A DNA stretch of 64,000 bases from Pannonibacter phragmitetus DSM 14782. GTDB taxonomy: Bacteria; Pseudomonadota; Alphaproteobacteria; Rhizobiales; Stappiaceae. The position numbers and the translations under genes are program-made. Below the pieces are notes generated by a model. The model searched no databases. It saw only the letters and a list, made by a program, of their open reading frames with translations, and was not told the DNA's origin. Below, piece by piece: positions 29,937 to 51,178 of the stretch; within the stretch, counting starts at the first letter, position 1, and every line of letters starts with the position of its first letter. The stretch spans positions 186,675-250,674 of the forward strand of contig NZ_KB908216.1 of assembly GCF_000382365.1 (NCBI RefSeq). The letters run 5' to 3'.

Positions 29937-30026
<90 letters not shown>

Positions 30027-48533: not shown

Positions 48534-49763
48534 GTGCAAGGGCAGCTTTCGATTTTCCGTCATCTGCTGGCCGCCGCCAGCTTCTGCGCCGCCATTTTCG
48601 CCGTGGCGCCCGCAGCTCACGCCGCAGATAACGGCCCTGTCTCCGTCGAACAGGGCGTGACCTACGAATATCTCGACCGCTGGGACGTGGACAAGCTGAA
48701 CGAAATCCTTACCAAGGATACGCCTGCCTTTGCCGGTATCACCGAGACCTACACCCCGGCCCGCAACGCGGTGAAGCTCTACCGCGTCACCTATCCGTCC
48801 GTGATCCCGGAGCGTGGCAACAAGCCGACCGTCGCCACCGGCCTGCTCGCCGTTCCCGACGTTGAAGGCAGCAGCTTCCCTCTCGTGTCCTATCAGCACG
48901 GCACTGTCTACCTGAAGCAGCAGGTGCCGTCCTATCCGGATCAGTCGCCGGAAACCCAGCTGATGATCGCCCAGTTCGCCGGGCAGGGTTATCTGCTGAT
49001 CGGTGCGGACTATTTCGGCCTCGGCGATTCGCCCGAGACGGAAAGCTACATGGTCAAGGCCAGCCACCAGCAGGCCACCTATGACATGCTTACAGCCAGC
49101 CAGTCCGTGCTCAAGGCCATGAAGCTGGAAGACAGCAAGCTGTTCCTCGCCGGCTGGTCGCAGGGCGGCTATGTCACCATGGCCATGGTGCAGAAGCTGG
49201 AACAGGCCGGTGTGCCCGTCACGGCAGCGGCCACCGCCAGCGCGCCCATCGACATTTTCGCGGCCCTCAACGGCTTCCTGAATTTCCCGCGCAAGTTCGA
49301 TGCGGATTGGGTCAACAGCCTGTTCATCCTGTCATCCTTCTCCTACGAGCACTACTATGGCCTGCCCGGCCTCGCCCGCTCGATGATCGCGGAGGAGTAT
49401 TATGACGTGGCACAAAAAGCCTATCTGCGCGAGCCCATTGATCCGTCTACGATCCCGGGCGACCTGCACAAGCTTCTGAAGCCGGAATATTTCGACACCC
49501 AGTTCTTCGCTGCCTCCGCCTTTGGCCGCCTTGCGGCGCAGAACGAGGTCTTCCGCTGGATCTACAAGACCCCGGTGCGCAACTATTACGGCGAAACGGA
49601 CGAAGCTATCTCCGTGGGCGTCGGCCGCATGGCCATGACCTATCAGCAGGCCATTGGCGCCGGAAACCCGGCTGTGGAGGCCGTCTCCACCGGCGGCACC
49701 ACCCACCGCGGCACCTTCGCCCGCGCCACCCCGCAGTGGAAGGGCTGGTTCGACGGGCTGTGA
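48534..49763 (+). CDS. Secreted alpha/beta hydrolase (lipase/esterase-like)
   Basis: Exported hydrolase of the alpha/beta fold. GTG at 48534 follows AGGGGA and opens a signal peptide (LLAAASFCAAIFAVAPAAHA, cleavage near residue 31). The nucleophile elbow is GWSQGGYV with Ser near residue 210. HG in YQHGTVYL near residue 122 probably builds the oxyanion hole. An Asp in GETDEAISV and a late His (TTHRG) complete a plausible triad. The family resembles secreted fungal-type lipases and prolyl oligopeptidase relatives; substrate unknown. It is followed by a 698-base repeat-rich region. Confidence 0.85.
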   Translation: MQGQLSIFRHLLAAASFCAAIFAVAPAAHAADNGPVSVEQGVTYEYLDRWDVDKLNEILTKDTPAFAGITETYTPARNAVKLYRVTYPSVIPERGNKPTVATGLLAVPDVEGSSFPLVSYQHGTVYLKQQVPSYPDQSPETQLMIAQFAGQGYLLIGADYFGLGDSPETESYMVKASHQQATYDMLTASQSVLKAMKLEDSKLFLAGWSQGGYVTMAMVQKLEQAGVPVTAAATASAPIDIFAALNGFLNFPRKFDADWVNSLFILSSFSYEHYYGLPGLARSMIAEEYYDVAQKAYLREPIDPSTIPGDLHKLLKPEYFDTQFFAASAFGRLAAQNEVFRWIYKTPVRNYYGETDEAISVGVGRMAMTYQQAIGAGNPAVEAVSTGGTTHRGTFARATPQWKGWFDGL

Positions 49764-49878
49764 GGGCTGCCTGAACGAAGTAACCGTTTCATCCCACGGC
49801 ACGGATTTTCCGCCCCTCATGGGGCCGCGCTTGAAACGGGCTGCAAGCAGGAAGGCACCCTCACATGAGGCCGCAGCG

Positions 49879-50083
49879 CCCCTCTCCCCCCTTGAGGGGC
49901 AGGGGAATCGCATATGGAATTTTTGGATTCGGATCTGTCGTCGCAACGCATTTCCGGATTCCAAAATTTCCCTTCGCAAGGACTGAGCGTTCGATCCTTG
50001 CGCAGGCGAAAGAGATTTCCGCCATATGCGATAGCCCTGCCTTGAGGGGGAGATGTCTGCGTTAGCAGACAGAGGGGGGGGGG
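49879..50083. repeat. G-rich palindromic repeat, left copy (interrupted)
   Basis: Without the insert it reads CCCCTCTCCCCCCTTGAGG (49879-49897) joined to GGGAGATG, then hairpin TGTCTGC-gtta-GCAGACA (50054-50071), then AGAGG and ten G in all. The right copy is the same in reverse orientation but with different hairpin bases, so the stem is kept by paired changes. Confidence 0.75.
49898..50041 (+). mobile_element. MITE-like 144-bp element, copy A
   Basis: Terminal inverted repeats are GGCAGGGGAATCGCATATGG (left) and its complement with two mismatches (right, 50022-50041). Both sides carry TTGAGG (49892-49897 and 50042-50047), as a 6-bp target duplication. An internal hairpin CGCAAGGA/TCCTTGCG is present. 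It encodes no protein and would need a transposase from elsewhere. It is 88% identical (127 of 144) to copy B. Confidence 0.75.
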
Positions 50084-50131
50084 CAGCGCCTCGGAACGGC
50101 ATCACCTTTCGTATGACAGGACAGTCAGTTA

Positions 50132-50332
50132 CCCCCCTCTGCCCCCTGCCGGGGGCATCTCCCCCTCAAGGCAGGGGAATCGCATATGCAATTTTTGGAT
50201 TCCGATCTTTCGCCGCAAGGCGCCTCTGGATTCCAAAATTACCTTTCGCAAGGACTGAATGTTCGATCCTTGCGTAGGCGGATGGGATTTCCGCCATATG
50301 CGATAGCCCTGCCCCTCAAGGGGGGAGAGGGG
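50132..50332. repeat. G-rich palindromic repeat, right copy (interrupted, inverted)
   Basis: Inverted relative to 49879-50083. It has CCCCCCTCT, hairpin TGCCCCC-tgcc-GGGGGCA on the plus strand (50140-50157), ATCTCCCCCTCAA, then after the insert CCTCAAGGGGGGAGAGGGG (50314-50332), the exact complement of 49879-49897. Confidence 0.75.
50170..50313 (+). mobile_element. MITE-like 144-bp element, copy B
   Basis: Exactly the same length as copy A and in the same orientation on the plus strand. Its terminal repeats run from 50170 and to 50313, ending CCATATGCGATAGCCCTGCC. Flanks are CCTCAA (50164-50169) and CCTCAA (50314-50319), the complement of the TTGAGG flanking copy A. The internal CGCAAGGA/TCCTTGCG stem is unchanged. 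Confidence 0.75.
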
Positions 50333-50413
50333 TTGGTGGCACTTCTGAGGGAAGCGCGCGGCTGGCCGTTCGTGTCTCCCTTTGAAATCCCCTTTCCAAC
50401 TTGACGGCACATA

Positions 50414-50435
50414 GTTGCATTTGCAATCAATTGCA
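50414..50435 (+). promoter_or_regulatory. Operator-like TTGCA repeats upstream of maiA
   Basis: TGCAAT-ca-ATTGCA (50422-50435) is a perfect 14-bp palindrome, with another GTTGCAT at 50414-50420. It lies 27-48 bases before the start of the isomerase gene in an AT-richer patch. MarR-type regulators often bind such TTGCAA sequences. Confidence 0.5.
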
Positions 50436-50461
50436 TTTCCAGTCCGCCTTGGGAGGGGCTT

Positions 50462-51112
50462 ATGTGCCGCGTTGTGCTTCACACCTATTTCCGCAGTTCC
50501 ACGTCCTTCCGGGTGCGCATTGCGCTGGCGATGAAGGGCATTGCCTATGAGCCGGTGTTTCATCACCTGCGCCTTGGCAAGCACCGGGAACCCGGATATC
50601 TTGCCGTCAACCCGCAAGGGCTTGTGCCCACGCTGGAATGGAGCGACGGCACGGTGCTGAGCCAATCGCTGGCCATCATCGAGTTTCTGGACGAGATGGT
50701 GTCCGAGCCCCGGCTGCTGCCGGAGGATGCCAGAGGCCGGGCGCGGGTGCGAATGCTGTCGCAGATGATTGCCTGCGACATCCACCCGGTGAACAACCTG
50801 CGCATCCTCAACGCCCTGCGCAGCCGCTTCGGCGCTGATGATGCGGCTGTCGCGGACTGGTTCCGCACATGGGTGGCCGAGACTTTCGGCCCGCTGGAGG
50901 CGCTGCTGGCGCAGAGCCCGGAAACCGGCCGCTTCTGCCACGGCGATGCGGTGACCATGGCCGATCTCTGCCTTGTGGCACAAGTGGCCAACAACGGCCG
51001 CTTCGGCGTGGACATGAGCCCCTATCCGGTGATCTCCCGCATCCACGCCGCCGCCATGGAGTTCCCCGCCTTCATCGCTGCCGCCCCGCAGAATCAGCCG
51101 GACGCGGAATAG
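50462..51112 (+). CDS. maiA: Maleylacetoacetate isomerase (zeta-class GST)
   Basis: Glutathione-dependent cis-trans isomerase of tyrosine/homogentisate breakdown. The 216-residue protein has the zeta-GST start LHTYFRSSTSFRVRIAL, with the SS-x-S active-site motif reading SSTS, and NPQGLVPTLEWSDGTVLSQS. The C-terminal AAAPQNQPDAE matches the family end. No hmgA or fahA is next to it, so it is isolated from the rest of the pathway. GGGAGGGG lies about seven bases before the ATG. Confidence 0.85.
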   Translation: MCRVVLHTYFRSSTSFRVRIALAMKGIAYEPVFHHLRLGKHREPGYLAVNPQGLVPTLEWSDGTVLSQSLAIIEFLDEMVSEPRLLPEDARGRARVRMLSQMIACDIHPVNNLRILNALRSRFGADDAAVADWFRTWVAETFGPLEALLAQSPETGRFCHGDAVTMADLCLVAQVANNGRFGVDMSPYPVISRIHAAAMEFPAFIAAAPQNQPDAE

Positions 51113-51118
51113 CCCCCA

Positions 51119-51150
51119 AAACGCAAACGGCGCCCGCTGGGGGCGCCGTG
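51119..51150. terminator. Bidirectional hairpin between maiA and the transaldolase gene
   Basis: ACGGCGCCC (51127-51135) pairs with GGGCGCCGT (51141-51149). It lies between the convergent maiA and transaldolase genes, 15 and 30 bases from their stops. T runs are weak on both sides. Confidence 0.6.
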
Positions 51151-51178
51151 TGTCTTCGCAAACCGGCAAATTCGTCAA

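Follow-up and report, generated by a model that had tools for sequence, protein, structure and literature searches.

Large palindromic repeats of alphaproteobacteria include the Rhizobium-specific intergenic mosaic elements (RIME), and elements of the ISAs1 family generate target duplications of 8 to 10 bp. The name RIME appears in the available text of PMC2245857. According to the accessible part of PMC1525189, ISRm22, ISRm19, ISPpu9, ISPpu10, ISPa11, and ISPsy8, which belong to the IS3, IS4, and IS110 families, target REP palindromes, and ISRm21 fills one table row, with two of its three pSymB copies being REP associated. The available portion of PMC2266754 describes the palindromic Bru-RS repeats of Brucella as the preferred insertion place of IS711, and that of a review (PMC10969869) tells of a Coxiella MITE with IS1111 in its palindrome.

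We analyzed a stretch of 64,000 nucleotides, here called the window, on contig C2 of the Pannonibacter phragmitetus DSM 14782 genome (4.78 Mb in 39 contigs). An intergenic segment between two plus-strand open reading frames (48534-49763 and 50462-51112) carries a palindromic repeat whose left arm is split by one short element, A, and whose right arm is split by another, B. The features of this segment, in window coordinates, are the following:

49879-50332, no strand assigned: palindromic host repeat, composed of two hairpin arms in inverted orientation plus a spacer (outer limits approximate)
49890-49899, plus strand: left 10-bp target duplication of A, CCTTGAGGGG
49900-50039, plus strand: element A, a 140-bp MITE of subfamily 1 (the C8 copy matches at 136/140)
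49900-49916, plus strand: left end of A, the same 17 nt as at the left terminus of the resident ISAs1-family IS
50021-50039, minus strand: right end of A, the same 19 nt as at the right terminus of the resident ISAs1-family IS
50040-50049, plus strand: right 10-bp target duplication of A
50040-50171, no strand assigned: inner host repeat between A and B (match counts below refer to its 128-base middle)
50162-50171, plus strand: left 10-bp target duplication of B, CCCCTCAAGG
50172-50311, plus strand: element B, a 140-bp MITE of subfamily 2 (the C11 copy matches at 139/140)
50312-50321, plus strand: right 10-bp target duplication of B

Long minus-strand open frames (49332-50105 and 50129-51178) run antisense to the elements and their neighboring genes and look like by-products of the G+C-rich sequence. 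A search of the whole window against Rfam at gathering score returned a tRNA gene only (29940-30026, minus strand) and no match to the 140-bp elements.

An earlier note on this DNA had described A and B as MITE-like units of 144 bp, 88% identical, with terminal inverted repeats of 20 bp and 6-bp flanking duplications. The direct repeat is real (144 nt, 88% alike, 49898-50041 versus 50170-50313), and the terminal inverted repeats of its units span 19 to 20 nt. When compared with the IS relatives and with the resident IS itself, the elements prove to end at CAGGG...CCCTG, which gives a true element length of 140 bp and corrects the flanking duplications to 10 bp, perfect for both A and B; a unit of 144 bp flanked by 6-bp duplications was therefore rejected. 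Removal of 144 + 6 bp or of 140 + 10 bp yields the identical empty site, so the proposed restoration of an intact repeat stands, as does the observation that A and B share one orientation while the host arms are inverted.

The genome contains four copies of the MITE at three places, namely, A and B in the window and one copy each on contigs C8 and C11. Each copy is 140 bp long and flanked by a 10-bp duplication, which places the repeat formed by A and B beyond chance. All four retain a difference between the left and right ends (GA versus CT). Over 140 positions, A matches the C8 copy at 136 and B matches the C11 copy at 139, whereas A and B match each other at 123. Among 87 genomes of the family that were searched, one further copy was found, in Pannonibacter indicus DSM 23407 (G008), a close relative within the same genus, and the MITE was absent from the other 85. 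When contigs of other genera were scanned with a 23-letter pattern of the right end, only P. indicus and one Parvularculaceae MAG matched. The MAG match was judged unrelated, as the core decamer described below was not seen beside it.

An ISAs1-family IS of this genome is bounded by the same ends as the MITE. Over the leftmost 17 nt and the rightmost 19 nt, element A and this IS are identical, and other matches between the MITE interior and the IS do not exceed 11 nt; with longer matches confined to the ends, the resident IS is no more than a candidate for the direct parent of the MITEs. Left ends of the IS occur on contigs C17, C20, C29, and C30 and right ends on C6, C18, and C23, and the IS runs off the contig at every place seen. 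An overlap of 482 bp, at 99.4% identity, between the pieces on C17 (1,097 bp) and C6 (548 bp) implies a putative full length of about 1,163 bp. The 338-amino-acid transposase piece, cut by a contig end, scored 325 bits against the NCBIfam ISAs1 model NF033564 (cut-off, 70), matched PF13808 and PF01609, and was about 79% identical to ISRm21-annotated proteins of Sinorhizobium meliloti. The genome also holds a 246-bp, internally deleted ISAs1-family IS with imperfect ends (C27:14239-14484; L079), which illustrates how such an IS can shrink. Its left flank, CCCCTGGTGG, lies in another G/C-rich palindrome, away from the core. A palindrome of this type recurs in P. indicus at the site corresponding to the window locus (L052).

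In the host repeat, two hairpin arms flank a spacer. The 12-bp core of the repeat, CCCCTTGAGGGG, has 132 exact occurrences in the genome, compared with 2 occurrences of the reversed control. In the 100 places listed of these 132, most cores are paired in opposite orientation, at a distance of about 124 bp. Searched against the genome, the 128-base middle of the inner repeat has 65 matches, some 40 of which span its full length or nearly so. Three of the 132 cores touch an insert end, and all of the copies aligned from the best matches (18/18; the set leaves out L035, the C17 repeat beside the IS, at a contig end) were without an insert. Relatives of the repeat were detected in 44 of the 87 family genomes and in 5 of 7 genera (E value of ≤1e-10). 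The two copies whose surroundings were examined, one in the window and the other on a plasmid of P. phragmitetus, are intergenic. As a multicopy palindrome built from inverted hairpins, the host is a putative RIME/REP-like repeat; like RIME, it is a large palindrome of alphaproteobacteria.

Every one of the genome's 15 perfect element ends adjoins CCCTTGAGGG, CCTTGAGGGG, CCCCTTGAGG, or a complement of one of these, that is, the core decamer or a one-base shift of it. There were 28 end matches in total; the 13 outside this count are both imperfect ends of the C27 derivative plus 11 matches with two mismatches that lack element sequence. The 15 perfect ends represent at least eight insertions (four MITEs and four IS left ends), and with the C27 derivative included, 8 of 9 insertions are at the core. 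Judged by eye, there is a resemblance to arms of the two-arm repeat in the flanks of A, B, the C11 MITE, and the IS ends. The C8 MITE adjoins the core decamer as well, with wider flanks that are G/C-rich and hairpin-like but unmatched to the two-arm repeat. The flanks of two IS right ends (L068 on C6 and L076 on C23) are nearly identical in their outer parts, and next to the element one has CCCTCAAGGG and the other CCCTTGAGGG, the core being reversed in its middle.

For comparison, 15 IS loci were chosen by transposase from 79 matching plasmid records, and a further one (L092) was added through a host-repeat match. All 15 computed IS relatives, at 14 different places, are flanked by exact 10-bp duplications; L095 and L102 represent one place in two strains, and L092, in a third strain, is by eye the same. 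The duplication has the form CC-N6-GG at 5 of the 14 places (L095/L102, L096, L100, L104, and L106) and lacks it at 9. A G-rich hairpin core like that of the window was seen by eye at about 4 (L095/L102, L096, L100, and L106) and not at the other 10. Given these two fractions, the core preference, while strong in the window genome, appears only partial among the relatives.

These relatives bear on the best-surviving alternative, according to which the transposase has no target preference and insertions in the repeat simply persist, harming no gene. The window copy does lie between two open reading frames, and most of the fetched relatives are inserted elsewhere than in such cores. By a rough estimate, the core accounts for about 1% of the CC-N6-GG decamers genome-wide and for about 9% at an assumed intergenic share of 12%, so that survival would lead one to expect some 9% of targets at the core against the 8/8 observed. 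Again roughly, with decamer density taken from the window only and independence and the 12% intergenic share assumed, the chance of 8/8 is about 1e-16 (at 1%) or 3e-9 (at 9%). We consider survival alone a very unlikely explanation.

Collectively, these comparisons indicate with high confidence that A and B are ISAs1-family MITEs that the resident transposase would have mobilized in trans, with a strong preference for the core, in two independent insertions. This confidence is slightly lowered by the CC-N6-GG form being found at only 5 of the 14 places among the relatives and by the C8 flanks being unmatched to the full repeat. In this view, the ends of the MITEs would be acted upon by the transposase of the IS, which would cut the target with a 10-bp stagger. 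The repeat may be favored by its core, CCCCTTGAGGGG, which stands at the center of a G/C-rich dyad and would offer the decamer in three overlapping registers; most likely, the transposase prefers the hairpin tip of the palindromic repeat. Being nearly palindromic, the core would admit an element in either orientation, which would account for the shared orientation of A and B in inverted arms, each element having landed independently in one arm of the same repeat.

A second alternative would make the 140-bp unit a structured regulatory element, RNA or DNA, that is retained for this role, with its mobile origin secondary. Element A as DNA and element B as RNA each fold better than 200/200 shuffled sequences (z scores of -6.9 and -5.9, respectively), and two inner hairpins are present in addition to the terminal stem. 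Such fold scores arise from MITE inverted repeats anyway, there are only four copies in the genome, neither element matched Rfam at gathering score, and the P. indicus copy is by eye altered in both inner stems, all of which makes a retained regulatory unit highly improbable. A single insertion, with the second element produced from the first through duplication, inversion, or gene conversion across the palindrome arms, can almost be dismissed: the arms are inverted copies and able to recombine, but A and B are co-oriented, each has its own perfect 10-bp duplication, and each is nearer to a copy elsewhere than to the other.

As members of different subfamilies (A-C8, 136/140; B-C11, 139/140; A-B, 123/140), A and B thus represent separate insertions, as the earlier note had argued in favor of two transposition events. 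Its view of the units as MITE-like is borne out by their 140-bp size, dispersal, lack of a transposase gene, and possession of the ends of the resident IS, and the preferred target that it had suggested is reflected in the 15/15 ends at the core decamer or a one-base shift. The searches that it had proposed returned the four 140-bp copies, each with its 10-bp duplication, repeats both with and without an insert (3 of 132 cores occupied at an insert end; 18/18 other viewed copies empty), and an ISAs1-family IS with matching ends. The copies thus do not all sit in identical flanks with no empty sites, and related transposase ends are present.

Within the sequence retrieved around the window locus, the core is absent from all four other Pannonibacter genomes. 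The corresponding spacers measure about 160 to 190 bp in three of them, and that of P. indicus is longer and contains another G/C-rich palindrome; as none of the four carries the repeat there, no clean orthologous empty site is available. The C11 locus of P. indicus lacks both the repeat and the MITE. At its C8 locus (L112, about 2154-2370), the left flank continues to within 2 bases of the MITE point, no MITE is present, and the right side differs, with a palindromic repeat without an insert coming next. The P. indicus MITE itself (L018, 1501-1639) lies between inverted, not direct, flanks, and its right flank gave no long match to the window genome. By eye, an apparent transposase gene lies to its left. 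A search of the other four Pannonibacter genomes revealed no transposase at an E value of ≤1e-60, and on this account the P. indicus MITE seems stranded. Recombination between two direct copies would delete the repeat core, and the P. indicus copy has that form; from this one case, we infer that its inverted flanks are the expected outcome of recombination between an A-like and a B-like element in opposite arms. Imperfect flank pairs of ISRm22 are likewise attributed to recombination between copies in the accessible part of PMC1525189.

A broader and rather doubtful possibility is that ISRm21-like ISAs1 transposases of Pannonibacter, Sinorhizobium, and Rhizobium read hairpin shape and not only the decamer, that the repeats would serve as shared landing pads, and that paired MITEs would recombine and erase cores, driving repeat turnover. 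If hairpin shape picks the target, the many intact sites in this genome would ease testing; otherwise, the system would represent ordinary transposon biology.

Among the freely accessible papers listed, no title or abstract opening described an ISAs1-family MITE in REP/RIME-type repeats, and ISRm21 was named in a single paper. The closest described elements, ISRm21 and its relatives (ISAs1 family, S. meliloti), have similar ends, 10-bp duplications, and a transposase about 79% identical to that found here, and some copies of the relatives lie in G-rich hairpin cores of the window's kind; the window elements differ in being 140 bp long, in lacking a transposase gene, and in having only the ends in common with ISRm21. 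The IS described in the available text of PMC1525189 place all their copies at one position of the palindrome, with ISRm22 at its axis, and that text mentions no MITE. The 15/15 perfect ends at the core decamer would fit this type 1 association, whereas the C27 derivative lies elsewhere and the C8 flanks are unmatched to the full repeat. IS711 likewise takes a palindromic alphaproteobacterial repeat as its target in the accessible part of the Bru-RS report, but it does so at a YTAR target and as a full IS. Insertion of IS into REP-type palindromes is thus already published, and what is added here is an ISAs1-family MITE, doubly inserted in one repeat. The ISAs1 family and its MITE thereby join the mobile elements that land in REP/RIME-type palindromes, with a natural case of double occupancy of a single repeat.
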